Below are positions 9,309-39,636 of a stretch of DNA of 41,221 nucleotides, piece by piece. Both the position numbers and the translations under genes were made by a program. Under the pieces are notes generated by a model. That model was not told where the DNA came from, ran no database searches, and was given only the letters and a program-made list of their open reading frames with translations. Numbering within the stretch: position 1 is the first letter of the stretch; each line of letters starts with the position of its first letter. The DNA is taken from assembly GCA_902790375.1 (NCBI GenBank), contig CADARY010000020.1, positions 1 to 41,221 of the forward strand, in the 5' to 3' direction. The DNA comes from Oscillospiraceae bacterium. Lineage in GTDB: Bacteria > Bacillota > Clostridia > Oscillospirales > Oscillospiraceae.

Positions 9309-9366
9309 TTGAACATCTCTCCTTCAAAACAGGTGTAATTATGCGCAAGAGTAAGAATACTTTCGC

Positions 9367-9395
9367 ATTATACCAAGATGGGAGAGGCATTTCAA
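9367..9395 (-). promoter_or_regulatory. Sigma-A promoter for amylase/HAD operon
   Basis: On the minus strand TTGAAA (9395-9390), 17-bp spacer, TATAAT (9372-9367). It lies about 60 bp upstream of the amylase ATG and is divergent from the SCP2 promoter. Confidence 0.75.
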
Positions 9396-9439
9396 GTGAA
9401 AGTTCGGACGGGAGTATGGAGCGGGGGTGAAATTGGGAC

Positions 9440-9468
9440 TTGCGAAAGGGGAGAACATCTCCTATAAT
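9440..9468 (+). promoter_or_regulatory. Sigma-A promoter for SCP2-domain gene
   Basis: TTGCGA (9440-9445), 17-bp spacer, TATAAT (9463-9468), about 40 bp before the ATG at 9507. Confidence 0.7.
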
Positions 9469-9506
9469 ATCGTTTGGTCAGTATTAATCAAGTTGGAGGA
9501 AACGGA

Positions 9507-9845
9507 ATGAAATTTGCAAGCATCCTCAAGCGCGCCAGAACCCTGGCCGCGGAAGCAGACATCTCCCAGGTGGATTTCCTGGCCGTGCAGATCAACATCG
9601 AGGGGGAAGAAAACGGCGTGTTTTACGTCGAGGTCAAGGACGGCCGCATTTCTGTGGAGCCCTATGAGTACTACGACCGGCAGTGCGCCGTCACCATCAG
9701 CGACGCTGATTTTTCCAAGCTCACCCGCGGCAAGCTCGACACGGCCAAGGCCTATGACGAGGGCAAGCTGCGCGTGGAGGGCGATCTCGGCAGGGCGGTG
9801 CAGTTCGCGGAGCTTCTGCAGAGCGGGATCAAGACGCAGCAATAA
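9507..9845 (+). CDS. SCP2 sterol-binding-domain family protein
   Basis: The 112-aa protein is a single SCP2-like domain, a small alpha/beta fold with a hydrophobic tunnel that binds lipids or other apolar ligands. The family's C-terminal block is visible in CAVTISDADFSKLTRGKLDT followed by the helix around LRVEGDLGRAVQFAELL. There is no signal peptide or membrane segment, so it is cytoplasmic. ATG 9507 was chosen because GGAGGA ends 6 nt upstream and an earlier possible start at 9474 would sit right at the -10 box. It is monocistronic, with its own promoter and terminator. A role in carrying fatty acids for the neighbouring acyl-assembly genes is possible but not shown. Confidence 0.82.
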   Translation: MKFASILKRARTLAAEADISQVDFLAVQINIEGEENGVFYVEVKDGRISVEPYEYYDRQCAVTISDADFSKLTRGKLDTAKAYDEGKLRVEGDLGRAVQFAELLQSGIKTQQ

Positions 9846-9855
9846 GATACGGCAG

Positions 9856-9888
9856 ACAGGGCAGTGGGCTTCCCACCGCCCTGTTTTC
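9856..9888 (+). terminator. Intrinsic terminator after SCP2 gene
   Basis: ACAGGGCAGTGGG (9856-9868) pairs with 9872-9884 with one mismatch, 3-nt loop, followed by a short T run. Confidence 0.75.
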
Positions 9889-9928
9889 AAAAAAGCGCCG
9901 GAAGGCTTGACTTTTTTGCCCACTGCTC

Positions 9929-9957
9929 TTGTCAAGAAATCCGCGGCGGGTTATAAT
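9929..9957 (+). promoter_or_regulatory. Sigma-A promoter for hydrolase / C-T-A operon
   Basis: TTGTCA (9929-9934), 17-bp spacer, TATAAT (9952-9957). Transcription from here would run through the alpha/beta hydrolase and on to the terminator at 14284-14322. Confidence 0.75.
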
Positions 9958-10055
9958 GCATATTATGAATATACCGATGCGCTCTGCGCAGTCGTGAACA
10001 AACCCATGGAAGAGCCGGGCCGCATTTCGGCGTCGGCGCTGGAAAGGATGATCAA

Positions 10056-11033
10056 ATGAATAAAAACCTGAAGAACCTGCTTTTGACCGGCGGCACCCTG
10101 GGTGCGGCCGGGGTCGGCTCCGGGATTACGGCGGGGGTCGCTTCCCTGATCCTCTTCAACAAGACGCTGCCGCGCCCCAAGGGGACCGACCCGGCGATCA
10201 TTGACGAGTTTGCCGACCGGGCCAGGATGGAGGAGTACACCGTCCGGATGGCCCCGGTGGGGGAGTGGATGGAGCGGCAGCGCTTCGAACATCTGTTCCT
10301 CCTGTCCCGTGACGGGCTGCATCTGCACGGCCTTTACCTCGCGGCCGAAAAGCCCTCCGACAGACTTGTGATCCTCCACCACGGCTATACGAGCCACGCC
10401 GTCGATAACGCCACGCACGCCAAATTCTTCCACGAGCTGGGCTATGAGGTGCTGCTGCTGGACCTGCGCGCCCACGGGGAGAGCGAGGGACAGTATGTCG
10501 GCTTCGGCATTCTCGACCGCTATGACACGCTGGAGTGGGTGCGCTGGGCCCGGACGCGCTTCGGCAAGGACGTGAAGATCGTGCTGCACGGCACCTCCAT
10601 GGGCGGGGCGACGGTGCTGATGGCGCTGGGCCTGCCGGAGATCCAGGAGGCCGTGTCCGCCGTGATTGCCGACTGCGCCTACACCTCGCCGGCGGACATT
10701 TTCGCAAGCGTGATCCGCAAGGACTACCATCTGCCGCCCGAACCCATCATCAAGCTCACGAACGTGCGGGCAAAGCGGGCGGCGGGCTACCGCTTCGACG
10801 AGTATTCCACCCTGGACGCGCTGCGCTATAACCGCGTGCCGGTCCTGTTCATCCACGGGCGGGAGGACAAATTCGTCCCCACCTGGATGAGCCAAAAGAA
10901 CTATGAGGCCTGCCCGTGCAAAAAGCAGATCCTCCTGGTGGACAATGCCGGCCACGGCTCGAGCGTGTTTGAGAACCAGCCCCTCTATGAACAGACCGAA
11001 AAGGCGTTCCTGGCCGACGCGCTGGGAGAGTAA
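10056..11033 (+). CDS. Alpha/beta hydrolase with N-terminal membrane anchor
   Basis: The 325-aa protein has a hydrophobic N-terminal segment (~9-34, Gly/Ala-rich) and then a serine hydrolase domain. The nucleophile is Ser181 in GTSMGG, the acid is Asp271 (HGREDKFVP) and the base His300 (NAGHGSS). LHHGYTSHA carries the oxyanion region. AAAGGATG precedes ATG 10056. It is the first gene of the probable operon with the condensation, carrier and ligase genes (58-bp gap). By position it could act as an esterase or thioesterase that supplies fatty acids or releases or edits acyl-carrier intermediates; this is inference. It resembles general Firmicute acyl esterases (YqkD/BAAT-like). Confidence 0.85.
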   Translation: MNKNLKNLLLTGGTLGAAGVGSGITAGVASLILFNKTLPRPKGTDPAIIDEFADRARMEEYTVRMAPVGEWMERQRFEHLFLLSRDGLHLHGLYLAAEKPSDRLVILHHGYTSHAVDNATHAKFFHELGYEVLLLDLRAHGESEGQYVGFGILDRYDTLEWVRWARTRFGKDVKIVLHGTSMGGATVLMALGLPEIQEAVSAVIADCAYTSPADIFASVIRKDYHLPPEPIIKLTNVRAKRAAGYRFDEYSTLDALRYNRVPVLFIHGREDKFVPTWMSQKNYEACPCKKQILLVDNAGHGSSVFENQPLYEQTEKAFLADALGE

Positions 11034-11091
11034 CACACGGATTCAGAAGAGAAAGCAAACGGATCAGGATCAGAAAAAGAAAGGACGAAGA

Positions 11092-12507
11092 ATGAAAGAG
11101 CTCAGTATTAACGGCGCGGTTGTACAGACCTACCCGCTGACCGCAGCCCAGCGCATCCACTTCTACACCGTATCCGCCTGCCGGAGAGAGGAACTGCTGA
11201 ACATTGCCACCGGCTTTTACATCGAGTTTGCCGACGTGGACTTTGACACCCTGCGCGAGTGCATCCGCGACGGGTATGAGAAATTTGAATCCATGCGCCT
11301 GCGCTTCACGAAGGACGAGGACGGCAATCTTGTCCAGTACCTGGTGCCCACCGAGGACCGGGAGATCAAGCTTGTGGACTTCTCACACTGGCGGGAGGAG
11401 GACGCCCATGAGGAAATGAAGCGCTGGAGCCGCATCCCCCTGCACATGGACGGCAGCCCTATGAGCGAGATCGTCATGATCCGCCTGCCGGGAAACTTCA
11501 ACGGCCTTTATATGAAGGTCCACCACATGACCATGGACTCCACCGCCATCATGAGCTTTTACAGCTATGTGCTCAATCTCTACTGCTATAAGAAGTTTGA
11601 GAACATCGAGCCGCCGAAGCCCCCGAAGAGCTACCTGGCCCAGCTCAAGCTGGACCTCCAGTACGAGGACAACAGCCCCGCCCTGGAGCGGGACCGGAAG
11701 TTCTGGCTCGAGCAGCTGGAGGCGCCGGAGCCCATCTACACCCCCTTCAGCCCCCGCAACCGCCTGCTGGAGCTGCGCGAGCAGACAGGCAACCCCAATC
11801 TCCGCGCCTGCTACGGCACCGGGGACATCGAGGCCGACATCAAGGTCTATGACCTGGAGGACGACCCGTCGAAGGCCCTGATCTCCTTCAGCAGGGAATA
11901 CCGCATCCCGGTCGCGTCCATCCTGCTGCTGGGGCTGCGCACCTGCTTTTCCAAGTTCTCGGGCGGGGAGAAGGACGTGAGCGTCAAGAACGCCGTGGCC
12001 CGCCGCGGCACCCTGCTGGAGAGCCAGTCCGGCGGCACGCGCATCCACTTCTGGCCCCTGCGCACGATCATCGAACCGGAGACCAGCTTCCTTGACGCAC
12101 TCAAGATCGTCCAGGCCAAGGAGAACGCCCTCCTGCGCCACGCAAATTACGACCCCATCCGCTACATGGGCGAGACTGCGGCCCACTACGGCTGCCCGCA
12201 GGGGACGGGCTACGAATGCACGACCCTGACCTATCAGCCGGTGTCCGCCGCGTCGCTGAAGGGCCGCCAGCTCCCCGACATGAACTTCAAGAGCATGTGG
12301 TACTCCAACGGCGTCGCCATGCAGCTCATCTATGTCACCGTCATGCACCGGCCCACCGACAACGGCTTCAGCTTCCATTTTGAATACGAGAAAAACTCCG
12401 TCTCCCTCGACGAGATCGAAAAGCTCTACTACTACCTCTGCCGCGCCATTTTCCGCGGCATCGAAGATCCGAACCGGACCATCGGGGAAATCCTCGATTG
12501 GATGTAA
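11092..12507 (+). CDS. Stand-alone NRPS condensation-domain protein
   Basis: The 471-aa protein is a condensation (C) domain that joins a carrier-bound acyl group to an amine. The active-site motif is HHMTMDS at 144-150 (family HHxxxDG, with His145 and Asp149 kept and the last Gly replaced by Ser). The early block YPLTAAQRIHFY resembles motif C1. AAAGGAC precedes ATG 11092; an in-frame open stretch back to 10903 lies inside the hydrolase gene and was ignored. It is followed by a free carrier protein and an AMP-ligase. Separate C, T and A genes like this are the layout reported for fatty-acid-amide clusters of gut Clostridia, where the C enzyme acylates a free amine. The amine used here cannot be read from sequence. 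Confidence 0.85.
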   Translation: MKELSINGAVVQTYPLTAAQRIHFYTVSACRREELLNIATGFYIEFADVDFDTLRECIRDGYEKFESMRLRFTKDEDGNLVQYLVPTEDREIKLVDFSHWREEDAHEEMKRWSRIPLHMDGSPMSEIVMIRLPGNFNGLYMKVHHMTMDSTAIMSFYSYVLNLYCYKKFENIEPPKPPKSYLAQLKLDLQYEDNSPALERDRKFWLEQLEAPEPIYTPFSPRNRLLELREQTGNPNLRACYGTGDIEADIKVYDLEDDPSKALISFSREYRIPVASILLLGLRTCFSKFSGGEKDVSVKNAVARRGTLLESQSGGTRIHFWPLRTIIEPETSFLDALKIVQAKENALLRHANYDPIRYMGETAAHYGCPQGTGYECTTLTYQPVSAASLKGRQLPDMNFKSMWYSNGVAMQLIYVTVMHRPTDNGFSFHFEYEKNSVSLDEIEKLYYYLCRAIFRGIEDPNRTIGEILDWM

Positions 12508-28294: not shown

Positions 28295-28405
28295 ATGCGC
28301 GGTTATTATGTGAGCTCGGGCTATTACGGCCTGGTGGACGGGAGGTATCTGCTCTTCGCGAGCGAGAGCGACTACTTTGAGGCGATGGAGGAGGAAGCGG
28401 CCTGA
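28295..28405 (+). CDS. 36-residue Tyr-rich small protein
   Basis: The 36-aa product begins MRGYYVSSGYYGLVDGRYLL and ends with an acidic helix (SDYFEAMEEEAA). GGGAGG lies 8 nt before ATG 28295. From memory, tiny proteins of the form GYY-SSG-YG-VDG-Y-LF-SE-DYYE recur in gut Clostridia, which supports it as a real gene. It has no signal peptide or TM. Function unknown. It forms a probable operon with the next small gene, 67 bp away, and is divergent from the WYL regulator. Confidence 0.65.
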   Translation: MRGYYVSSGYYGLVDGRYLLFASESDYFEAMEEEAA

Positions 28406-28472
28406 AGGAGAATCGGGACCGGCCTTAACGGGAAGGAAAAACAGGGAAATCAAAAATGGGGGAGAGATCAAA

Positions 28473-28649
28473 ATGAACATCAGAACACAGGCGGAGACAA
28501 TCGGCTTTCAGATCGTCGGCAGCCTGGTCCGCCGCATGGACCGGGAGCCCTCGCATCTGTATCAGTGCTTCTTCGACGAGGCGGAGAACGAGTACATCCT
28601 GCACCTCGGCATCCTCACCATCGTCGCGGCAGACGGCAGCGTTTACTGA
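28473..28649 (+). CDS. 58-residue protein of unknown function
   Basis: The 58-aa product (MNIRTQAETIGFQIVGSLVR...) looks like a small alpha/beta protein ending in a beta-hairpin (EYILHLGILTIVAADGSVY). A GGGGGAGAG ribosome site precedes ATG 28473. Its stop overlaps the LanM stop on the other strand by 7 bp. I see no double-glycine or leader-like features, so it is probably not a precursor peptide. Function unknown. Confidence 0.6.
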   Translation: MNIRTQAETIGFQIVGSLVRRMDREPSHLYQCFFDEAENEYILHLGILTIVAADGSVY

Positions 28650-31375
28650 AAGGCGTCCAGCGCGTCTGCATAGACCAGCAGGGCATAAGCGACGCCGGAG
28701 AGGCCGCGCCAGAAGGAAGGATCGGGGACGTTGCGCAGACGCCGTGGGAGAGAGCGATAACCGCCGTCCCGCCTTGCACGGACGGAAGCCTCGGCAAGGC
28801 GCACACCCGAGGCGCGCAGGAGGGACGGGTCCCTGCGGCGGAGCGCGGTCTCGGTCAGCGCCAGGGCAACGCCCGCGTTGCCGCAGGCCAGATCGTCCGT
28901 CTCGAGAAACGGAAGCGAGAGCGTCCCGGCAAGGGCCTTGTCTGCAAGCGCTTCGGCAGCGGGCACGGCGTCCTCGCACAGAACCGCAGCCAGGGCGATC
29001 CCCGGCGCGCCGGCCTCCAGCCCCTCGCCGCGGATGACGGGCAGGGAGGACTTTTCATAATCCGGCCAGCCGTCCAGCAGTGTGCGGTGCTGCGCGCTCT
29101 CATAGAGAAATGCCTTTTCCGCGGCGTCCAGGCAGGCGGCGTTGCCGGTGAGGCGGAAGCTCCGCACCAGGGCGAGGCCGGTGCCCGCCATACCCTTGCC
29201 GAGTCCGGAGACCGGGCCGGGCTCGTTGACGTGCTCCGCCGCAAGGGGCGTCAGACGCTCGATAAGCTGCAGGAGCGGCTTCGGCGCGCCCGTCGGTCCG
29301 AGCCGCTCCGCCGCCGCGAGACAGCCGAACAGCAGTCCGCCGATCCCGGCGTAGAGGCCTGCGTTCTCCTCTTCAAACGAACGGGCGGAGAGCGTCAGGC
29401 TCGATATGACGTCTTCGATCCCCTCAGCGTCCATGCAGGGGGAGAGCAGCAGACCGCCCACGCCCTTGCGCAGGCCCGGATGCAGAACAGCGCGGAAGGC
29501 CGCGCTCATCTGACGATAGGTCCGTCTTGCGCGCAGAAGGTCGTCCCGCGTATCCCTGAGCCAGCCCAGGGCCCAGGCTTCCCGGCCGAGGGCGTCGGTC
29601 CTCCGGACGCGGTCGAAAAGGACGCTCATACCGGGCAGACCCCGTTCAAAATTCGGGTGATAGGTCGGGACAAGATGCCGGTCCGCACTCAGCAGGATGC
29701 GGCTGCCGTCGGTGAGCGTCAGGGCCATCTGCTCCAGGGCATCGAGAATGCGGCCCGCCTCGGCGCGGGCCTCCCGGGCGGTGAGGGGCTCCGGCTCCGG
29801 TTCGGGCTGAACAGCCGGCGCTGGCGCCGCAGTATCCGGCCCCTGCTCAAGACGCCGCCGCAGGTAATCCAGCTCAAAGCGCTTTTCCTCCGGGCCGGAG
29901 CGCTCCAGCGTCATCAGGCACAGCTCGGTCGCCGGGATGCGGAAATACCCCTCGAGCAGCACTTCGCCGCGCGGGTCCCCATAGAGATTGCCGCTGCCTG
30001 CGCGGAAGGAGAAATAGGGGATATCGCCCTCCAGGAGGCAGGCGCGCTCCCACTCCACCACCGGCATATACTCCGGCGCTTTTTCAAAGTGCCGCTTGAG
30101 ATCGCTGAGGATCTTCTCCCGCGCCTCCGGGGACGCGCAGCCCGCGGGGGCGTGCAGCTCCCGGAGCGTCAGAGCGTAATAGGCCGAGGCCCTGAGGACA
30201 AAGCGGGCGCTCATCTCCTCCGCCTCGCGCACGAGCTGCGCAAGCTCGTCCCGCCGCAAAAGCAGGCGGTCATACTGGCTCTCAAAGCCCCGGAGAAAGT
30301 CCTCCTCATAGCCGTAAACGGGGATCTGCCTGCCGTCGAGAACCGGGAGGCAGTTTGCCGTCTCCGTCCCGCCGCGCAGCAGAGGGCTGATCTGCGCCTT
30401 GCCCTGGAGCATCATGGGGAGCACCAGGGTGTTCTGCGCGGAGAACATCATGTCCCGCCATACCGGGTTCATCTCGTCGGGCGAGTGGATCTCGCAGCCC
30501 TGGTAGGGGTCCGAGGCAGGGGTGAAGAGGGTTTCCATGTCGATGGCGGTCGGGTAGACGCCGCAGGCAAGGATGTTCTCAAAGTGCATGTCGGAGCTGC
30601 CGAGGAAGCGGAAGAGCGCCGTGAGCGCGCCGAAGTTCCGGTAATACTGCGCAAGCTCCGCCGTACTCTCTACGGGCAAGGTCTGCATGCATTCGAGAAA
30701 GCCGAAGCCGTCGGCACACACGACACGGGGCGCCAGGGTCTCGTCGGGGCAGAAGCGGGCCACGATCTGCCGATAGAGCAGATCGAGCCGGCTGTCGCGG
30801 GGCTTGTAGTAAAATACGCCGCCCTCGCACACAACGCGCATGGCGCACTGGCCGTACAGATGCATGTCGGCCCCGGAGGCGCCGAGGGAGAGAAGCCTGC
30901 CCATGGAGCGGCCCGCCAGAAGCTCCTGCTCGATCTGCCCGGCGTGTGCGCTCACCCGGCGCAGGAAGGTCGTAAAGAACGCGCGGAAGTTTGCTGAGAC
31001 GCGCTCGGCGTCCTGCCGGAGAAGGGGATAGCGTTCAAAGGGACTGCCGCCGGGCGCGGAGAGGCGTTGAAGCGTCTCAGCCCGCGCCTCGGCGCGGTCA
31101 CTGTCCGAGGCAAAGTGCGGCGAGAGCTGGACGGCGGGGTTGATGCGGCAAAGGGCCTCCTCCAGCGCGGCCTGAACCGTGGGCTCGGCAAGCGCCCTGA
31201 GGCGCCCGAGCAGGAGCTCACGCCCGAGGGCGGCGGATTCACGCAGCGGAAGCTCCGGCAGGCGGGAGATCGCGTCGATCTCCGCCTCCGCCATGGGGCG
31301 GAGAAACGCGAAGAGATCCGCCGTCTCCTCTGTGGAGGCCTGCCTGTTTTCCGTGTTCTCAGGGGTCCTGCTCAT
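28643..31375 (-). CDS. Class II lanthipeptide synthetase (LanM) with intact dehydratase and degenerate cyclase site
   Basis: This 910-aa LanM is the modifying enzyme of the RiPP locus. The N-terminal DUF4135 domain phosphorylates and eliminates Ser/Thr. Its expected residues are present with CylM-like spacing: Lys191 (FYYKPRD), Asp262, His264 and Asn267 (SDMHFENIL), Asp279 and Glu281 (AIDMETLF). The C-terminal LanC-like domain (~550-910) keeps the barrel text, such as LYAGIGGLLFG, GAPGIALA, CGNAGVALAL and GLSGVAYALL. The four catalytic positions are changed: the general-acid His is Lys727 (GLGKGMAG), the WCHG zinc Cys is Glu787 (GLEAGAPG), and the second zinc pair Cys-His is Ala830-Cys831 (LACGNAG). 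Ring closure by zinc is therefore unlikely. The start overlaps the flavoprotein stop (ATGA), with AAGGAGG upstream, so translation is coupled. Confidence 0.9.
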   Translation of the reverse strand: MSRTPENTENRQASTEETADLFAFLRPMAEAEIDAISRLPELPLRESAALGRELLLGRLRALAEPTVQAALEEALCRINPAVQLSPHFASDSDRAEARAETLQRLSAPGGSPFERYPLLRQDAERVSANFRAFFTTFLRRVSAHAGQIEQELLAGRSMGRLLSLGASGADMHLYGQCAMRVVCEGGVFYYKPRDSRLDLLYRQIVARFCPDETLAPRVVCADGFGFLECMQTLPVESTAELAQYYRNFGALTALFRFLGSSDMHFENILACGVYPTAIDMETLFTPASDPYQGCEIHSPDEMNPVWRDMMFSAQNTLVLPMMLQGKAQISPLLRGGTETANCLPVLDGRQIPVYGYEEDFLRGFESQYDRLLLRRDELAQLVREAEEMSARFVLRASAYYALTLRELHAPAGCASPEAREKILSDLKRHFEKAPEYMPVVEWERACLLEGDIPYFSFRAGSGNLYGDPRGEVLLEGYFRIPATELCLMTLERSGPEEKRFELDYLRRRLEQGPDTAAPAPAVQPEPEPEPLTAREARAEAGRILDALEQMALTLTDGSRILLSADRHLVPTYHPNFERGLPGMSVLFDRVRRTDALGREAWALGWLRDTRDDLLRARRTYRQMSAAFRAVLHPGLRKGVGGLLLSPCMDAEGIEDVISSLTLSARSFEEENAGLYAGIGGLLFGCLAAAERLGPTGAPKPLLQLIERLTPLAAEHVNEPGPVSGLGKGMAGTGLALVRSFRLTGNAACLDAAEKAFLYESAQHRTLLDGWPDYEKSSLPVIRGEGLEAGAPGIALAAVLCEDAVPAAEALADKALAGTLSLPFLETDDLACGNAGVALALTETALRRRDPSLLRASGVRLAEASVRARRDGGYRSLPRRLRNVPDPSFWRGLSGVAYALLVYADALDAFQ

Positions 31376-32124
31376 GTGGCCGACCCTCCTTTCTTCAGCA
31401 GCGCCTCGCGCAGGGAGGCGCAGTTCATCAGGCCGCGCTGCCGGAAGGTGTCCACCTCATCGGGGCAGCGCCGGCCCATGAGGGTGCGGAAGGTTTCAAT
31501 ACCGCGGAAGCTTTTCAGCATGGCCTGAAATTGGGCCTCGGCAAGCTCGGAGAGATAGTTTTCGGGCTGCCTGACCGCGTCCAGGAGCTTCCCGGCGGCC
31601 TCCGACAAGGCAGCCTGCGCTTCCTCGCTCCCGACCAGAAGACCCTCGCCCTGCCGCTGCATGGGAAGCCGCGCCGCGACGCAGCAGCCCATGGTCTCCA
31701 GACACTCGGAGAGATAGTCGCAGGCGCGCGCCGCGCCGGTCTGGCCGGTCACGCTGAGCGCCACGCAGGGCTTTCCGAGCAGCTCGAACACATGGCACCA
31801 GCGGGCGCAGCGGTCCAGAAAATTCTTGCACCAGCCGCTGACCGAGTACATGTATACGGGCGTCGCGGCGATCAAGGCGTCGCAGTCCCGGAGCTTCTGC
31901 CGGAGCACGGCCATGCCGTCCGCCCCGTCCTGGGGGCAGAAGCCCTCCCGAAAGCAGGTTTTGCAGCCGACGCAGGACAGCACGGGCAGCTCGCTCATGG
32001 TGACGATCTCAAGCTCCGCCCCAGCGCTTCGCGCGTGGAGCAGGCCGCAGAGCTCCTCCGTCACCTGCAGGGTCACAGACTTGCCCTCCCGGCGCGAGGC
32101 GAATACAAGCGCCAGTATTTTCAT
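31372..32124 (-). CDS. Iron-sulfur flavoprotein / NADPH-dependent FMN reductase-like protein
   Basis: The 250-aa protein has a flavodoxin-like fold: N-terminal phosphate loop ASRREGKSV, then ATPVYMYSVSGWCKNFLDRC for flavin binding. A cysteine cluster CVGCKTCFREGFC (~51-63) is typical of the 4Fe-4S site in iron-sulfur flavoproteins. It is the first gene of the minus-strand unit and overlaps the LanM start by ATGA, so the two are made together. In some lanthipeptide clusters (carnolysin, bicereucin) LanJ reductases, including flavin-dependent ones, reduce dehydroalanine or dehydrobutyrine to D-amino acids. A similar role here is a reasonable inference but unproven; a general redox role is the alternative. 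GGAGGG precedes ATG 32124. Confidence 0.82.
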   Translation of the reverse strand: MKILALVFASRREGKSVTLQVTEELCGLLHARSAGAELEIVTMSELPVLSCVGCKTCFREGFCPQDGADGMAVLRQKLRDCDALIAATPVYMYSVSGWCKNFLDRCARWCHVFELLGKPCVALSVTGQTGAARACDYLSECLETMGCCVAARLPMQRQGEGLLVGSEEAQAALSEAAGKLLDAVRQPENYLSELAEAQFQAMLKSFRGIETFRTLMGRRCPDEVDTFRQRGLMNCASLREALLKKGGSAT

Positions 32125-32380: not shown

Positions 32381-32665
32381 ATGACACTGAAAGAATTCTA
32401 TGAAAAAGCTGCGAACAACAGCGAACTGCAGGCAAAGGTTGCCGAGGCTGCCAAGAGCGGCAAGCCCCTGGAGAGCGTTCTGAAGGAGCTGGGCATCGAG
32501 GCCACCGTCGATGAGCTCAAGGCCTTCGTCAACGCCAACGCTGCCGAGGGCAAGCTCGACAAGAGCCAGCTCGACGAGGTCGCCGGCGGCACCACCCCCA
32601 CTGTCGCCACCATCGTTCCTGCTGCGGGCGTTACCATTTCCGTTTCTTCCCTCGCTACCTGCTGA
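32381..32665 (+). CDS. Nif11-type leader RiPP precursor with single-Cys core
   Basis: The 94-aa precursor has a Nif11-like leader (residues 1-70: MTLKEFYEKAANNSEL... to DEVAGG) and a 24-residue core starting TTPTVATIVP after Gly69-Gly70. The core has six Thr (71, 72, 74, 77, 85, 93), three Ser (87, 89, 90) and one Cys, the last residue (94). AGVTISVSS (82-90) resembles AGVTVSAS of lichenicidin-type beta peptides. The following Cys-Pro-Thr-Thr-Lys-Cys ring region of those peptides is missing. At most one thioether ring is possible. ATG 32381 lies 10 nt after AAAGGAG; a TTG-like start at 32342 is not needed. It is likely modified by the divergent LanM and exported by the C39 transporter downstream. 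Confidence 0.9.
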   Translation: MTLKEFYEKAANNSELQAKVAEAAKSGKPLESVLKELGIEATVDELKAFVNANAAEGKLDKSQLDEVAGGTTPTVATIVPAAGVTISVSSLATC

Positions 32666-32798: not shown

Positions 32799-34730
32799 AT
32801 GAGTTCCGAACTGCACAAGAACCCCAGCGAAGAAGAGCGGCTTGACGTCGTCCTGCTGTCCCCGCCATACGATTTTCCGCCGCGCCCGTCGATCGCGCTG
32901 TCGATCTTCCGGCAGTGCCTGAACGAGGCGGGGATGCGCTCGCGCGTCCTCTACCCGATGTTTCGCCTGTCCCATCTGCTCGGCATTGAGACCGCGAGGA
33001 AGATCGACGCCATCCCCTATACGGGAGGCCTGCAGGAGTACCTCTTCGCCCACATGACCGACGCGGAAAACACATACGACGATGAGACCTTTGCCCGGCT
33101 TGTGTGCCGGGAGTACCCGGTCTATCCCGTGGAGGAGCTGCTTGCGCTGATCGCCGATGCCAGGGAAAAGGCCCGGCAGTGTGTGGAGGAGCTTGCGCAG
33201 GAGATCGTGCGGGCCCGGCCCGGCGTGCTCGCGGTCAGCACCATCTTTTCGCAGAATAACGGCGCGCTCGCCGTCATCCGGCGCGTCAAGGAGCTTGCGC
33301 CGGAGATCGCCACGATCCTCGGCGGCACCAACGTGTCCGGCGAGGCGGGAGCGGCGGTGCTGCGCCATTATCCGAGCGTGGACTACGTCTTCTTCGGCGA
33401 GGGGGACGAGGTGTTTGCCGAGGTCTGCCGCATCGCCATGGGCGCCGTGCCCGGCCCCATGCCCTACGGCGTGATCCGGCACGGGGAGGAGATCCCCGAC
33501 CCGATCCCGCACCGCATGACGCAGGATATGAACCGGGTCTGCTATCCCGATTATTCCGACTTTATCGACGCCTGGGAGCGCGAGCAGGCGGGGGAGTACG
33601 GCCCGCCCATGTTCGGCTCGGAGTTTGTCGAGGAAAACAAGCAGCTGCTCTATTTGTCGGGCGCAAACTACGCCCTGTACCTGGAGGGCTCGCGCGGCTG
33701 CTGGTGGGGGCAGAAGCACCCGTGCAGCTTCTGCGGCCTGAACGGGCGCAAAAACGTCTACCGCTACAAGAGCGCCGGGCGCCTGTATGAGGAGATCCTG
33801 GCGCTCAGCCGCAAATACGATAACCAGCTCATCCAGCTCACGGACAATATCCTGAGCTTTGACGCGATGGAAAAGCTCCTGCCCATGCTCGCTGAGAGCG
33901 GAGAGAAGCTGCAGCTCGTCGGCGAGGTCAAGACGAACCTGAAGGAGCGGGACATCGAGCGGCTTGTGAAGGCGGGCTTCTGCATCGTGCAGCCCGGCAT
34001 CGAGAGCCTGAACGACCACCTGCTGGAGCTGATGAACAAGGGCAACAACGCCGCTTCCCACGTGGCCTTTCTGAAATACTGCCGCAAGCACAATCTGGGG
34101 CTTTCCTGGAACCTGCTGATAGCCATGCCGGGCGAGCGGGAGGAGGACTACGAGGAGATGATCGAGCTCATCCCGAAGCTCGTGCACTTCCATCCGCCGA
34201 CGGGCACCTTCCCGATCATGTTCCAGCGCTATTCGCGTTACCTCGAAAACCCGGCGCAGTACGGCCTGGAGCTCGAACCGTATGAGATATACCGCTGCAT
34301 CTACGGCGACAACGACGACCGGGTCGAGAGCATGTGCATGTACTACCGCCTGACGGGCGGCACTTTTCAGGCGTCGCTGGAGCATATGCAGCCCTGGTAT
34401 AACCGGCTCTACACGGCGGTGTATGAATGGAAAAGGAACGCGGCGTCCGGGGAAAAGCGCGGCCTTGTGATGGCCGAGACCGAAAGCGGGCTTCTGCTGC
34501 TGGACTCGCGGCCCTGCATGGTGCAGCCCTTCATCCTCCTGACCGGGGTGGACAGGGCGGTATACCTCGCCTGCGACGAGGTGAAGACGGAAAAGCAGCT
34601 TCTCAGCGCCTTGGGCGGGGAAGCGAGCGGCGAGGAGATCCTTGCCTCGGTGGAAAAGCTCACCGCGCTGAATGTTCTGGCAAAGCTGGGCGGGCGCTGC
34701 ATATCCCTGGCGCTTCCCGCCTCGGCCTGA
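32799..34730 (+). CDS. B12-binding radical SAM RiPP maturase (RiPP maturation radical SAM protein 1 type)
   Basis: The 643-aa enzyme has an N-terminal cobalamin-binding-like Rossmann domain (~10-215: DVVLLSPPYDFPPRPS, ILGGTNVSGEAG, YVFFGEGDEV). A radical SAM barrel follows, with Cys301, Cys309 and Cys312 in SRGCWWGQKHPCSFCGLNG. The spacing CX7CX2C and this sequence match the RiPP maturation radical SAM protein 1 family, usually found with Nif11 or NHLP leaders. The C-terminal ~180 residues form a possible peptide-binding domain. B12 radical SAM enzymes often C-methylate unactivated carbons; the reaction here is not determinable. GGGAGGAG lies 8 nt before ATG 32799. Its presence beside a LanM suggests a doubly modified product. 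Confidence 0.88.
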   Translation: MSSELHKNPSEEERLDVVLLSPPYDFPPRPSIALSIFRQCLNEAGMRSRVLYPMFRLSHLLGIETARKIDAIPYTGGLQEYLFAHMTDAENTYDDETFARLVCREYPVYPVEELLALIADAREKARQCVEELAQEIVRARPGVLAVSTIFSQNNGALAVIRRVKELAPEIATILGGTNVSGEAGAAVLRHYPSVDYVFFGEGDEVFAEVCRIAMGAVPGPMPYGVIRHGEEIPDPIPHRMTQDMNRVCYPDYSDFIDAWEREQAGEYGPPMFGSEFVEENKQLLYLSGANYALYLEGSRGCWWGQKHPCSFCGLNGRKNVYRYKSAGRLYEEILALSRKYDNQLIQLTDNILSFDAMEKLLPMLAESGEKLQLVGEVKTNLKERDIERLVKAGFCIVQPGIESLNDHLLELMNKGNNAASHVAFLKYCRKHNLGLSWNLLIAMPGEREEDYEEMIELIPKLVHFHPPTGTFPIMFQRYSRYLENPAQYGLELEPYEIYRCIYGDNDDRVESMCMYYRLTGGTFQASLEHMQPWYNRLYTAVYEWKRNAASGEKRGLVMAETESGLLLLDSRPCMVQPFILLTGVDRAVYLACDEVKTEKQLLSALGGEASGEEILASVEKLTALNVLAKLGGRCISLALPASA

Positions 34731-34748: not shown

Positions 34749-35273
34749 ATGGCAAATAGTGAAAACCTGTTTCGCAAGGAGAGTATGGACCAGTTGAGCC
34801 AGCAGACCAAAACCGGCCCCTATGTAAGCGCAACGCGCCTCATGCCGTGGATGACGCTGGTGGCGGTACTGATCCTGGTGCTGTCCTTTCTGATCTGGGC
34901 CTTTGCCGGCAAGCTGCCTGTCACGGTGGCCTGCAAGGGCTTTGCCCCGAACACGGGGAACGAGTGTATCCTCTTCCTGACGCCCCAGCAGATGCAGACA
35001 TATGAGACAGATCAGGGGGATGACGTGCGTGTTACCCAGCCCAACGGCGGCATTCTTCGGGGCAAGGTGGTCGGCGTCTCGGACAAGCCCCATTCCCAGG
35101 AGGAAATGTCGAATATCATCGAGAGCGACTGGGTCTTTAACGAGGTTGCCAAAGCGGATTACAACTACTATGTCACCGTCAAGGTGAATTCGCCCCTGCA
35201 GAAGGAAGATCTGGTGGACGCGGTCATTACGGTCGACCATGTGCGGCCCATATTCCTGATGCTCAATCCCTGA
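34749..35273 (+). CDS. Short HlyD-like (NHLM) secretion adaptor
   Basis: The 174-aa protein has an N-terminal cytoplasmic segment (ENLFRKESMDQLSQQ), one TM (~32-54, MPWMTLVAVLILVLSFLIWA) and an extracytoplasmic domain of ~118 residues with beta-rich, HlyD-like text (QGDDVRVTQPNGGILRGKV). The start LFRKESMDQLS resembles NHLM-system HlyD proteins. It lacks the long coiled-coil hairpin, being well below the usual size. In a single-membrane cell a short adaptor could suffice. It lies 18 bp after the maturase and 18 bp before the exporter gene, with a GAGGAGAGG ribosome site, so all are co-transcribed. Confidence 0.78.
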   Translation: MANSENLFRKESMDQLSQQTKTGPYVSATRLMPWMTLVAVLILVLSFLIWAFAGKLPVTVACKGFAPNTGNECILFLTPQQMQTYETDQGDDVRVTQPNGGILRGKVVGVSDKPHSQEEMSNIIESDWVFNEVAKADYNYYVTVKVNSPLQKEDLVDAVITVDHVRPIFLMLNP

Positions 35274-35291: not shown

Positions 35292-37442
35292 ATGAAATAT
35301 TCACATGTAAAAGTACCGATGATCATGCAGATGGAGTTCGTCGAATGCGGGGCGGCCTCGCTGGCCATGATCCTCGCGTATCACGGGAAATACGTTCCGC
35401 TCGAGCAGGTGCGCCGGGACTGCGGCGTATCCCGGGACGGGTCGCGCGCGTCCAACATTGTCACCGCGGCGGAGAACTATGGCATGATCGCCCAGGGCTA
35501 TCGCTGGTCGGTGGAGAGCGTGATGGAGAAGGCGCACATCCCCTGCATCATCCACTGGAACATGGCGCATTTTGTGGTGCTGCGTGGCTTCGGCAGGAAC
35601 AAGGCCTATCTCAATGATCCGGGGCGCGGTGAGATCACCGTGAGCATGGAGGAATTTAACAGCAGCTTTACCGGCATCGTGCTGGAGTTTACCCCCGGAG
35701 AGAACTTTGTCCGGGACGGGAAAGCGCCCACGGTGCTCGGATATCTGCGCGAGAGGGCGCGGCAGTACCGCTCGGGCCTGCTGTTCCTGGCGCTGGATAC
35801 CCTCGCGGTATCGCTCGCGGGGCTGATGGTGCCCGTATTCCAGAGGATCTTTACCGATATGATCCTGGAGGGGCGGCAGGCCTGGCAGAGACAGTTTTTC
35901 CTCATGCTGCTGCTTCTGGGCGCAGTGGAGCTTGTCGCGGATCTTTTGCGCGAAATGTATATTTATCGGATACAGGGCGACATGTCGATCCGGACGAACA
36001 CGGCGTTCTTCGCGCACCTGCTGAGGCTTCCCATTGAGTTCTACCAGCAGCGCTCCGCGGGGGATCTGATCTCGCGGCTCACGATGAATTCCACCATTGC
36101 CGAGCTTCTGGTGCGCAGGATCACGCCGACGGCGATCCAGCTTGTGATGGTGGTGATCTATTTCGCGGCGCTCCTGGCCCTGAACCTCCGTGCGGCCTTC
36201 CTGGGGGGCTTTGCGCTCTGCGTCACCGTGTTCGCGGCCTGGTTTCTGGCCCGCTTTACGCTTCAGTCGCAGCAGCAGCGCATGAACAGCAAAATGCGCA
36301 TGGATGCCACCATGATCTCGGGCATCGACATGATCGAGACCATCAAGTCCTCGGGCGTGGGCAACGGGTATTTTGCCCGCTGGGCCAGCCAGCAGGCGGA
36401 GGTCAACGAGGGCAAAACCAGGGAAAACGACGTCTCGGTCTATCTGACCGGGCTCTCGGTTTTCCTGCTGGATCTGACAAACGCCCTGGTGCTGGCCGTG
36501 GCCGCCTGGTCCATCATCCACGGCAGGACCACCGTGGGCCTCATCCTCGTGCTGCAGACCCTGATCCAGAAGCTGACGGCCCCGGCCCAGGAGCTGGCGC
36601 AGGTCAGCCGGAACACCCGGGAGCTTGCAAGCTCCATCCAGAAGGTGGAGGACGTAAGGTGCTATGAGGAGGACAAGGCCTTCCCGCTCAGCGCCATGGA
36701 AGCGGACACAACGCTTGCCCCCCTGCAGGGAGGCGTCGAGTTTCGGCACGTCACCTTCGGCTATACGCATCTGGGCCCGCCGCTGCTGGATGATTTCTCC
36801 TTCAAAATCGAGCCGGGCCAGCGCGTGGCCTTCGTGGGGGCGTCCGGCTCGGGCAAATCCACCGTCGCAAAGCTCATGACCGGCGCGGTGCTCCCCTGGT
36901 CGGGGGAGGTGCTGTATGACGGGGTGGACCGCTTCAAGCTGCCGAAATCCCTCTTTGCTGACAGTGTGGCGGTCGTGAGCCAGGAAAGCACGCTCTTTGA
37001 GGCGACCGCGCGCAACAACATCTGCCTCTGGGACAGCAGGATCCCCGGTCCGGAGATCTCCCGGGCTGCCCGGGAGGCCTGCATCGAAGAGGATATCCTG
37101 ATGCATCCGGGCGGCTACGACTATCTGGTCCGCTCCGGCGGAAAGAACTTCTCCGGCGGTCAGCGCCAGCGCATCACGATCGCGCGCGCCCTGGTCCGAA
37201 ATCCGAAGGTGCTGATCCTGGACGAGGCGACCTCGGCGCTGGACGCCGTGACCGAGCATAGAATCATGGAGAACATCAAGGCGCGCGGCATCACCACGAT
37301 CATCGTGGCGCACAGACTTTCCACCGTGCGCGACTGCGACAGGATCATCGTGCTGTCAGGCGGGAAAATTGTCGAGCAGGGCACACACGACGAGCTGATG
37401 AGACGGCAGGGGAGCTATTACACCCTGGTCTCATCGCAGTGA
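35292..37442 (+). CDS. C39 peptidase-containing ABC exporter (NHLM peptidase/ATP-binding type)
   Basis: The 716-aa exporter cleaves double-glycine leaders and exports the product. The N-terminal C39 peptidase (1-~130) has Gln13, catalytic Cys19 (MEFVECGAASLAM), His93 (NMAHFVVLRGF) and Asp109 (LNDPGRG). The membrane domain (~150-450) and the ATPase follow, with GASGSGKST, ILDEATSALD and FSGGQRQRI. It is complete, with no missing key residue. Probable substrates are the Nif11 precursor and possibly the 44-aa peptide at 39799 and the LysM protein at 24180. A GAGGACGG site lies before ATG 35292. Confidence 0.93.
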   Translation: MKYSHVKVPMIMQMEFVECGAASLAMILAYHGKYVPLEQVRRDCGVSRDGSRASNIVTAAENYGMIAQGYRWSVESVMEKAHIPCIIHWNMAHFVVLRGFGRNKAYLNDPGRGEITVSMEEFNSSFTGIVLEFTPGENFVRDGKAPTVLGYLRERARQYRSGLLFLALDTLAVSLAGLMVPVFQRIFTDMILEGRQAWQRQFFLMLLLLGAVELVADLLREMYIYRIQGDMSIRTNTAFFAHLLRLPIEFYQQRSAGDLISRLTMNSTIAELLVRRITPTAIQLVMVVIYFAALLALNLRAAFLGGFALCVTVFAAWFLARFTLQSQQQRMNSKMRMDATMISGIDMIETIKSSGVGNGYFARWASQQAEVNEGKTRENDVSVYLTGLSVFLLDLTNALVLAVAAWSIIHGRTTVGLILVLQTLIQKLTAPAQELAQVSRNTRELASSIQKVEDVRCYEEDKAFPLSAMEADTTLAPLQGGVEFRHVTFGYTHLGPPLLDDFSFKIEPGQRVAFVGASGSGKSTVAKLMTGAVLPWSGEVLYDGVDRFKLPKSLFADSVAVVSQESTLFEATARNNICLWDSRIPGPEISRAAREACIEEDILMHPGGYDYLVRSGGKNFSGGQRQRITIARALVRNPKVLILDEATSALDAVTEHRIMENIKARGITTIIVAHRLSTVRDCDRIIVLSGGKIVEQGTHDELMRRQGSYYTLVSSQ

Positions 37443-37452
37443 GGGGGCAAGC

Positions 37453-39636
37453 ATGAGCGACAACTGGAAGGAGCGAATCCTGCAGCGTCAGATGGCCGAC
37501 GCCGAACGGCTGGAGAACGCGGAGGACAAGCTTTTCGGCGTCACCGCCAACGGCGCGTCCGAGGATCGGCAGAAAAGCAGCGACCGTTCCCTTGACCGCG
37601 CGTTCGCGCTGCGGGAGATCTGCACCTTTTACGGCATTTCAACACCGGAGTTTCATCCGGATCGTATCGGAAACGAAGCCTATGTGGAAGATCTGCTGCG
37701 CAAAAACGGCATCATGTCCCGCGTGTGCCTGCTCTCCCCGGGCTGGGAGAAAAATGCCTTCGGGCCGTATCTGTGCAGGCTCACAAGCGGCGTTACCACG
37801 ACGCTGCTGCCCGGAAACTACGGGCACTATTCCTACAACGACCCCTCGAGCGGGGAGCTTATCCGTGTTGACAAGAAAAACAGCGCGCTGATCGAGCGCG
37901 AGGCTGTGCTCTATTATCGCTCTCCGCCCCAGACCAGGCTGAGCCTCAGGGAGCTGCTCGGTTTTATGATGAGCTGCGTCACCGGCGGCGAGTGCTTTTT
38001 GATCCTGCTGTGCGCCGTGGCGGTGATCCTGCTCGGCATTTACTATCCGATCGCAAGCAAGTGGATGATGACGCTGGTCATCCCCTCCGGCAACGCCGAG
38101 CTCATCTACTCGCTGATGGTCTTTCTCCTGGGCTGCGCCGTTTCCAAGTATCTCTTCTCGGTCGTGCAGGCGCGAGCGGTTGCACGCGTCAGCCAGAAGA
38201 TGAGCCTGTTTCTGCAGAGCTCGCTTTTCGCGCGCGTGCTGGATCTGCCGGTTGAGTTTTTCCGCAAAAACAAGACGGCCGACATCTACGGCAGCCTGAA
38301 TCTGGTGGAGCCCTTATGCACGGTGCTCTGCTCCCTCTTTTTCTCCACAGGCCTGGCAGCGCTTTTGTCCCTGGTATACGTGCTTGAGCTGAAAACCGCC
38401 GCTCCCCGGATGATCGGCCCGGCCCTGCTGGTGCTGGGCATCCAGCTTGTGCTGCAGCTGCTCGGCGTACTGGGCCAGGTCCGCAACGCCATGGACCGCC
38501 TGCGCGGGCAGATGGAGACGAACGAGCGGGCGCTCGACACCCTGTGGGGCATCGCCGAGGTGAAGAACGCGAACGCTGAGTCGCGGGTGCTGGCCCGCTT
38601 TATGGAGGCCTACCACCGCCAGGCGGACGCGGAGTTTCGCCCGCCTCTTTTCGTGAAGCTGCAAAACGCCCTCGGTCCCGCCGCGGGCCTTTTCGGGATG
38701 GCGCTGCTTTTCTGGATGGCCCTCCGGATCGGCCTGAGCGATGATCTCTTCATCTATTTCTTCGCGGCCTACAGCATGAGCAACACGGCCATCGGCCAAC
38801 TGAGCGGCCTGGGTTCCCAGATCGCGGCCATTCGCCCGATCCTGCTGCTGCTGAAACCGATCCTGGAGGAGGTTCCCGAGATCTCGTCTGCCGGGCGGGA
38901 CCCGGGAAAGCTCAGCGGGGCCATCGCCCTCAAGGAGGTGTCCTTCCGCTATGGTGAAACCGCGCCCCTGGTGCTGGATCACCTGAGCATGCAGGTGAAG
39001 CCCGGGGAGTATCTGGCCATCGTGGGCAGCTCCGGCTCCGGCAAATCCACCCTTGTGCGCCTGCTGCTGGGCTTTGAGCAGCCGCAGACCGGCGCGGTCT
39101 ACTATGACGGCGAAAACCTGCTCCACCTGGACAGCGCGGCCGTCCGGCGGCAGATCGGGGCCGTGCTGCAGCAGGGCAGGATCTTCTCCGGAAACGTGTT
39201 TACGAACATTGCTATCTCGCGGCCCGATCTGACAGAGGAAGAGGCGTGGGCGGCGGCAGAGGCCGCGGGCCTGGCCGACGATATACGGGCTATGCCGCTC
39301 GGAATGCAGACGATCCTCTCGGATGACGCTGTAACAATATCCGGCGGGCAGAAGCAGCGCCTGCTCATTGCCCGCGTCATTGCGCAGAAGCCCTCCATCC
39401 TCATCCTGGACGAGGCGACCTCGGCGCTGGACAATGTGACGCAGAAGAAGGTGACAGACGCCCTGGAAAAGCTGCACTGCACGCGCATCGTCATTGCCCA
39501 TCGCCTGAGCACGATCCGGGACTGCGACCGCATCCTGATGCTCGACAGGGGCCGCATCATCGAGGAGGGGAGCTATGACGAGCTGCTTGCCAAGGACGGC
39601 GAATTTGCAAAGCTCGTGAAATACCAGCTCATGTGA
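37453..39636 (+). CDS. NHLM-type ABC exporter ATP-binding/permease, no peptidase
   Basis: The 727-aa protein has an N-terminal region (~1-170) that is a degenerate, non-catalytic module (LREICTFYGISTPEFHP) without C39 residues. A six-TM ABC domain (~175-460) follows, then an ATPase with GSSGSGKST, ISGGQKQRL and ILILDEATSALD. This matches the second ABC protein of NHLM systems, which are usually longer. It probably forms a heterodimer with the peptidase-ABC protein. GAGGGGG lies just before ATG 37453, 10 bp after the previous stop. Confidence 0.9.
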   Translation: MSDNWKERILQRQMADAERLENAEDKLFGVTANGASEDRQKSSDRSLDRAFALREICTFYGISTPEFHPDRIGNEAYVEDLLRKNGIMSRVCLLSPGWEKNAFGPYLCRLTSGVTTTLLPGNYGHYSYNDPSSGELIRVDKKNSALIEREAVLYYRSPPQTRLSLRELLGFMMSCVTGGECFLILLCAVAVILLGIYYPIASKWMMTLVIPSGNAELIYSLMVFLLGCAVSKYLFSVVQARAVARVSQKMSLFLQSSLFARVLDLPVEFFRKNKTADIYGSLNLVEPLCTVLCSLFFSTGLAALLSLVYVLELKTAAPRMIGPALLVLGIQLVLQLLGVLGQVRNAMDRLRGQMETNERALDTLWGIAEVKNANAESRVLARFMEAYHRQADAEFRPPLFVKLQNALGPAAGLFGMALLFWMALRIGLSDDLFIYFFAAYSMSNTAIGQLSGLGSQIAAIRPILLLLKPILEEVPEISSAGRDPGKLSGAIALKEVSFRYGETAPLVLDHLSMQVKPGEYLAIVGSSGSGKSTLVRLLLGFEQPQTGAVYYDGENLLHLDSAAVRRQIGAVLQQGRIFSGNVFTNIAISRPDLTEEEAWAAAEAAGLADDIRAMPLGMQTILSDDAVTISGGQKQRLLIARVIAQKPSILILDEATSALDNVTQKKVTDALEKLHCTRIVIAHRLSTIRDCDRILMLDRGRIIEEGSYDELLAKDGEFAKLVKYQLM

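Follow-up and report, generated by a model that had tools for sequence, protein, structure and literature searches.

What does a lanthipeptide synthetase make when its dehydratase is complete and the zinc site of its cyclase is gone? This question is raised by a LanM-like gene in the window, the stretch of 41,221 nucleotides analysed here (positions 1 to 41,221 of contig CADARY010000020.1, assembly GCA_902790375.1, Oscillospiraceae bacterium). We consider it fairly likely that this LanM is a dehydratase feeding a reductase encoded beside it, and that the product would be a mostly linear, hydrophobic, C-methylated peptide bearing D-residues. Gene content, residue states, selection and synteny were read from the sequences themselves, and from them we infer every chemical step described below.

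Active-site residues in the two halves of the LanM

The LanM open reading frame (ORF; Table 1) has no internal stop and matches the Pfam families DUF4135 (7.6e-61) and LANC_like (1.8e-10); its TIGR03897 score, 292.9 bits, lies slightly below the curated cut-off of 304. As in class II LanMs, the DUF4135 half holds the kinase/lyase residues: Lys191, Asp262, His264, Asn267, Asp279 and Glu281 are all present, are invariant across an alignment of 10 LanMs, and recur in every row of at least 750 amino acids of a 63-row alignment, with the exception of L101, which is not a LanM. The extent of the gene and the full set of kinase/lyase residues had been proposed in a first-pass annotation, and both were confirmed by the intact ORF and the alignments.

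Arg506 and Thr512 of CylM have a role in phosphate elimination. Counting positions on the CylM alignment, they correspond to Arg391 and Ser397 of the window LanM. Arg391 is retained across the window clade. Ser at the Thr512 position is found in the window and its congeners L021 to L023, and also in L031; most other LanMs have Thr there, and L024 is unreadable at this place. A LanM of this kind might phosphorylate its precursor without eliminating the phosphate, as EmbM does for phospeptin, and release a phosphopeptide. The Ser of the window clade would suit this explanation, which has a precedent in a cyclase-less LanM relative acting on a peptide with a Nif11-type leader (PMC9505594). Nevertheless, we regard it as very unlikely: Arg391 is retained, Ser preserves the hydroxyl, and a phosphopeptide would leave a reductase of dehydroalanine (Dha) and dehydrobutyrine (Dhb) without a substrate.

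In the LanC half, the family profile pairs GFSHG, YWCHGAPG and SLCHG of LicM2 with GLGKG, GLEAGAPG and DLACG of the window. NisC His212, Cys284, Cys330 and His331 are thereby equivalent to Lys727, Glu787, Ala830 and Cys831, and Asp141 to Gly673. Class II enzymes carry C-C-H or C-C-C zinc ligands and an acid/base His, whereas here the ligand positions read E-A-C and the His is a Lys. ProcM is a LanM of the CCG type, with three Cys ligands, and so are the nearest zinc-intact sisters of the window LanM (L030, L048 and L049), which keep the His and the three Cys. Compared with these, Cys831 is best seen as the one ligand left of three, and would be the sole remaining candidate ligand. The window and its four congeners share Glu787 (5/5), Ala830 (5/5) and Lys or Arg at 727 (5/5), while Cys831 is kept in 4/5, being Leu in L024; four of the five cyclase positions are replaced, and the fifth is lost in L024. 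No Cys or His, the only residues considered as alternative ligands, is conserved across the five close homologues within residues 780-835, where alternative ligands would, according to the first-pass annotation, speak against its proposal; the Cys and His common to all five in the LanC half are His567, His573, His632, Cys647 and Cys685. The LanC alpha/alpha torus, as expected of a class II LanM, is retained in the AlphaFold model.

The LicM2/NisC profile alignment agrees with that annotation on the four positions 727, 787, 830 and 831, and its statement that at most one ligand remains also holds. Its wording that every canonical cyclase residue is replaced is right in relation to CCH enzymes and too broad in relation to CCG enzymes, in which Cys831 is the third ligand. 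A LanM that dehydrates and forms no zinc-dependent rings fits the sequence evidence, from which both properties are predicted. The reductase, precursor and C-methyltransferase genes nearby do not figure in that annotation of the LanM.

Relatives, tree and selection

At the level of the genus, 12 of 102 genomes had a LanM match, and at that of the family, 6 of 400; profile A1 (E <= 1e-20) matched 1 of 394 genomes in the order and 12 of 391 in the class, and TIGR03897 (E <= 1e-30) 4 of 398 in the phylum, with the source genome included in each of these counts. Furthermore, the L067 LanM used as query had matches in 13 of 150 genomes from the family to which G1210 belongs; 14 regions were fetched from these matches, and a single scan of genome contigs gave 10 loci.

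Three congeners (L021, L022 and L023) have intact LanM genes whose products are 76-79% identical to that of the window. The identities are similar in the LanC half (76.6, 78.2 and 75.8%) and in residues 1-530 (79.6, 77.6 and 76.4%). Pairwise comparison of the four intact genes (six pairs) gave ratios of nonsynonymous to synonymous substitution rates (dN/dS) of 0.15-0.24 for residues 100-520 and 0.19-0.38 for residues 540-910. These values indicate that both halves of the LanM are under purifying selection.

An alternative is plain decay, either of the cyclase half or of the gene as a whole. The LanM gene of L024 is indeed broken, being split into two ORFs, and the dN/dS of the LanC half is slightly higher, reaching 0.38 in the closest pair. 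However, the frames are intact in the window and in three other species, both halves are similarly conserved, dN/dS is well below 1, and the modelled LanC half would still form its torus; we therefore hold decay to be very improbable. The earlier suggestion of a lineage rather than a single decayed copy is borne out by the intact frames in three congeners and by the conserved dehydratase half, with the broken L024 as the exception. The E-A-C pattern, which homologues had been expected to share, is present in L021 to L023; L024 has E-A only, and a sister group lacks the pattern. This second group in the genus (L025 to L027) is about 30% identical, and it also lacks the zinc ligands, with other residues in place of E-A-C.

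A tree was built from 22 chosen rows, L024 not among them, on the dehydratase half alone. Here we call zinc-dead a LanM with at least one of the three ligands replaced. The seven full-length zinc-dead LanMs group together (bootstrap and SH-like approximate likelihood-ratio test, SH-aLRT, 90/90; 92% of bootstrap trees; branch not starred), and a quick 56-row tree is consistent with this grouping (SH-aLRT 97). This group is nested in a clade (100/98) that also contains three shortened LanMs together with the zinc-intact L030, L048 and L049; therefore, the zinc site has probably been lost inside this larger clade, once or twice.

Why the LanC fold should be kept is suggested by two published enzymes. 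CcaM has a zinc-free LanC-type half that is needed for dehydration, and its product has no lanthionine (PMC10676384); in ThurKC, changes in the cyclase half impair dehydration (PMC10604976). Selection on a dead LanC half fits these precedents, and by analogy with CcaM the fold may have been kept as a scaffold or core-binding domain required for dehydration.

The shortened LanMs (L026:7107-9062, L027:5211-7298 and L028:2796-4820; 651-695 amino acids) have intact kinase residues and lack the aligned middle of the LanC domain. Those of L026 and L027 share their neighbourhood with a full-length zinc-dead LanM.

Gene cluster, probable reductase and proposed product

The genes around the LanM are listed in Table 1. 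The precursor, radical S-adenosylmethionine (SAM), HlyD-like and ATP-binding cassette (ABC) exporter genes run divergently from the pair formed by the LanM and the FMN_red-family gene. All seven genes are found together in the four close relatives L021 to L024, the broken LanM of L024 and a HlyD-like protein in 4/4 included. No match in these relatives was found, in a search with the window proteins, for the WYL regulator, the response regulator and the small ORF 28377-28649 that flank the cluster, and the borders of the cluster are suggested by this absence. The small ORF (plus strand) meets the LanM stop codon from the opposite strand.

Table 1. Positions in the window of the LanM, its cyclase-site residues and the neighbouring cluster genes
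Feature	Position	Strand	Remarks
LanM-like synthetase, 910 aa	28643..31375	minus	dehydratase residues intact, cyclase site lost
DUF4135-type dehydratase half, about residues 116-515	29831..31030	minus	K191, D262, H264, N267, D279, E281, R391, S397
LanC-like half, residues 531-910	28646..29785	minus	fold retained; both acid/base residues and two of the three CCG-type zinc ligands exchanged
Gly673, NisC Asp141 position	29357..29359	minus	alignment
Lys727, NisC His212 (acid/base) position	29195..29197	minus	alignment
Glu787, zinc ligand Cys284 position	29015..29017	minus	alignment
Ala830-Cys831, zinc ligands Cys330-His331 position (Cys-Cys in CCG-type sisters)	28883..28888	minus	alignment
FMN_red flavoprotein (LanJB-like), 250 aa, CX2CX2CX5C motif	31372..32124	minus	stop overlaps LanM start by 4 bases (ATGA)
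Nif11-leader precursor, 94 aa, core TTPTVATIVPAAGVTISVSSLATC after GG	32381..32665	plus	TIGR03798
Cobalamin-binding radical SAM C-methyltransferase	32799..34730	plus	TIGR03975 506.1 bits, cut-off 281.85; B12-binding and Radical_SAM domains
HlyD-like (NHLM_micro_HlyD) short secretion protein	34749..35273	plus	weak: 30 bits, cut-off 156.2
C39 peptidase/ABC exporter (NHLM_micro_ABC1-like)	35292..37442	plus	826.5 bits, cut-off 853.3
Second ABC exporter (NHLM_micro_ABC2-like)	37453..39636	plus	617.1 bits, cut-off 709.4

The precursor has the features of a Nif11-leader ribosomally synthesised and post-translationally modified peptide, with a TIGR03798 score above the cut-off (32.9 against 32.3 bits) and a double-glycine (GG) site; the Pfam Nif11 score, 23.5, is just under the cut-off of 23.8. 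The C-methyltransferase passes its TIGR03975 cut-off. Nine Ser/Thr and a single, terminal Cys are present in the window core, against two Cys in that of L022 and none in that of L023. In a comparison that is descriptive, the cores being related, 0-2 Cys were counted in 10 cores of zinc-dead or L031 clusters and 2-5 in 10 zinc-intact cores. The count includes L102, whose core lacks a clear GG site and was given a start chosen by the analyst; it leaves out the candidates of L037 and L100, which have one Cys apiece and no evident GG site, L067, where no precursor stood out, L025, whose contig showed none, and L075 to L077, L099 and other zinc-intact loci with unsettled precursors.

The FMN_red gene beside the LanM matches the arrangement expected for an NAD(P)H-dependent reductase of the LanJB type; LanJB belongs to the FMN reductase family (PMC7268733) and reduces Dha and Dhb (PMC11519912). 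The window protein carries the compact iron-sulfur flavoprotein motif CX2CX2CX5-7C (PMC3164229), as CVGCKTCFREGFC, and CX2CX2CX5-6C is present in 21/21 FMN_red matches of the surveyed loci, seven of them in zinc-intact LanM loci (L068, L069, L072, L075, L076, L077 and L099). FMN_red stands upstream of the LanM in the window clade and, also adjoining, downstream in L025 to L027; therefore, the pairing either outlived a rearrangement or arose twice.

Among 52 scored LanMs, a same-strand FMN_red gene within about 1.1 kb accompanies 11 of the 12 zinc-dead and 6 of the 40 zinc-intact proteins (Fisher p 2e-6, kinship ignored). Beyond the genus, zinc-dead LanMs are found in L037, L067 and L100, where FMN_red is nearby, and in L102, where it is not; L067 keeps one ligand Cys, the His and the Asp, and L037 one Cys. 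Also counted as zinc-intact were L081, with Tyr at the His212 position, and the partial 707-amino-acid ORF of L072, whose FMN_red is on the opposite strand and was scored as without; there are near-copies among the rows (L075/L076 and L035/L036). Eleven of the 63 rows were excluded: L031 (zinc region missing; same-strand FMN_red matches 5.9 and 7.2 kb away), the second LanM of L107, L112 and the second of L113 (contig ends), L101 (no kinase residues), and as shortened the second LanMs of L026 and L027, L028, L066, L078 and L080.

We propose that the LanM would phosphorylate Ser/Thr of the precursor and eliminate the phosphate to give Dha/Dhb, as its complete active-site residues suggest, and that without a zinc site it would form no thioether rings by the LanC mechanism. 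Judging from its family and its linkage to the LanM, the adjoining FMN_red protein would then reduce Dha/Dhb to D-Ala/D-Abu (D-aminobutyrate), the cobalamin radical SAM enzyme would methylate carbons of core residues, as its family predicts, and the C39 exporter may cleave after GG and export the product.

Several results weigh against this proposal and the link with the reductase behind it. The residue equivalent to CylM Thr512 is Ser, and the LanC half has a somewhat higher dN/dS than the dehydratase half. Four of the five close cores end in Cys and that of L022 has two, so that a ring could form. FMN_red is a broad family and LanJB activity is assigned by family only; the solved structures closest in sequence are the uncharacterised protein 1sqs and chromate reductases. 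A kinship-aware test left 4 independent pairs, of which about 2 agreed and 0.3 opposed, and was not significant, and no FMN_red match was found in the zinc-dead L102 locus. Sampling favours the link as well: the FMN_red profile was seeded from clusters with LanMs that are zinc-dead or lack the zinc region, and some zinc-intact loci are short (4.6-7.3 kb: L038, L113, L049 and L030). In addition, most LanMs entered the sample through similarity to zinc-dead queries, which makes it non-random. Given the few contrasts, the sampling and the profile seeding, we treat the link between zinc loss and FMN_red as a lead.

The terminal Cys also bears on another explanation, namely that the LanC half needs no zinc for cyclisation, like the LanKC enzymes of class III, and closes one small C-terminal ring between this Cys and an upstream Dha/Dhb. 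Zinc-free cyclisation is known for class III ThurKC (PMC10604976), 4/5 close cores finish in Ala-Thr-Cys with Ser-Ser immediately before, and a class III profile gives the LanC half alone 47.5 bits. However, the score with the class II profile is higher, at 67.3 bits, and ThurKC uses Phe770-Asp771, a pair described for ThurKC itself, at the Cys330-His331 position (PMC10604976), where the window has Ala-Cys and L024 Ala-Leu. Furthermore, the core of L023 is free of Cys, although its LanM, 76% identical to that of the window, shows the same E-A-C residues. We consider this ring unlikely. A separate cyclase acting in trans is extremely improbable: although its gene could be missing from an assembly that is 88.6% complete, the single LanC-like match of the source genome is this LanM (the one Nif11-leader match is in the same cluster), and L021 to L024, whose loci were searched with the window proteins only, showed no LanM-like matches beyond the LanMs described.

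As regards core design, alternating D/L residues were considered, since Ser/Thr seemed by eye to stand at every second core position. The idea was dropped after shuffling 7 cores, which gave no support for alternation (parity p 0.21-0.67; lag-2 p 0.62-0.84).

Known systems and further loci

The first-pass annotation had called this a previously little-described type, which is too strong, as LanM-type dehydratases without zinc ligands are published (CcaM/LanMbC, PMC10676384). LanMbC/CcaM, which make carnazolamide and dehydrazoles, likewise join DUF4135 to a LanC-type half without zinc ligands; in the window, two of the three CCG ligands are replaced and Cys831 is kept in 4/5. The product of those enzymes is dehydrated without lanthionine, as would be the case here. 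They are described as a class III cyclase fusion and defined with YcaO (PMC10676384), whereas the window LanC half scores better with the class II than with the class III profile and may be of class II type, YcaO matches are absent from the seven-gene cluster, the leader is Nif11-type and not NHLP-type, and there are a reductase and a C-methyltransferase instead. LahM1 and LahM2 of Lachnospiraceae are also unusual class II synthetases of anaerobic Bacillota (PMC10676384, PMC10373908) and, in the wording of PMC10676384, are among the LanMs without zinc residues. They differ, by description, in a YcaO (implied in PMC10676384) and in the carboxylate methyltransferase LahSB. Judged by all these comparisons, zinc-less LanM dehydratases are known and linear LanM plus LanJ peptides have been proposed, and the window cluster is a new variant combination.

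The D-residues of the Poy system are made by a radical SAM epimerase. PoyD is named in PMC10676384. PoyF (polytheonamides) and EmbM (phospeptin) are LanM-type enzymes without a cyclase; the Poy cluster has cobalamin radical SAM C-methyltransferases and Emb a Nif11-type leader (PMC9505594). They have no cyclase domain, whereas the window LanM keeps the domain and has lost the site, and a LanJB-like reductase is present in the window cluster. The Nostoc NpnJA cluster and bicereucin (BsjJB) combine LanM and LanJ to give D-Ala or D-Ala/D-Abu (PMC5808125, PMC11519912). For Cys-free Nostoc prepeptides with LanM and LanJ, linear D-peptides have been proposed (PMC5808125), and LanM-associated precursors lacking Cys are already published (PMC7268733). 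NpnJA is an NADPH-dependent LanJA-type reductase, unlike the FMN_red of the window. BsjM also serves a lanthionine-containing peptide. The CCG-type LanMs L030, L048 and L049 have Nif11-like leaders, as the window does, and differ in cores with 2-5 Cys; no FMN_red was found in the 7.2-18.4 kb fetched around them.

The combination of a zinc-dead class II LanM with an adjoining FMN_red and with a cobalamin radical SAM C-methyltransferase that would act on the same Nif11 precursor was not seen among the literature matches listed, most subscription papers being outside their scope. We tentatively suggest a distinct type, in which a zinc-dead LanM and an iron-sulfur LanJB replace lanthionine synthesis and radical SAM epimerisation, and would place several D-Ala/D-Abu in a linear Nif11-leader peptide that is then C-methylated by the cobalamin radical SAM enzyme, a polytheonamide-like product reached by another route. 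Loss of the cyclase might recur where a LanM is committed to feeding a reductase, the LanC torus serving as a platform for core holding or reductase docking. The genus and family also contain zinc-intact sisters of about 30% identity, which makes a non-cyclising role of LanC testable, and a LanM/LanJB-like pair whose short core has one Cys or none might be of use for D-residue peptides. A zinc-dead LanM beside FMN_red is also a simple candidate rule for mining, which needs a larger, phylogenetically balanced set.

Other loci of the survey show further arrangements. In L102, the zinc-dead LanM lies beside a Ser-rich, Cys-free, precursor-like ORF with His/Ser repeats (8070-8318, 8409-11525). A single 618-amino-acid ORF of L027 (7136-8992, minus strand) fuses FMN_red to a radical SAM/SPASM domain, which are separate neighbours in L026. 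YcaO genes, one of them joined to a methyltransferase domain, are found in L025 (10428-12245) and L031 (5482-8208 and 15926-17806), where FMN_red also occurs and the nearby LanM is zinc-dead or devoid of the zinc region, respectively; these loci possibly make peptides with azoles plus reduced residues. Finally, L075 (12392-12586) and L076 (12257-12442) encode, beside a zinc-intact LanM and FMN_red, precursor-like peptides in which about every other residue is Thr, as judged by eye.

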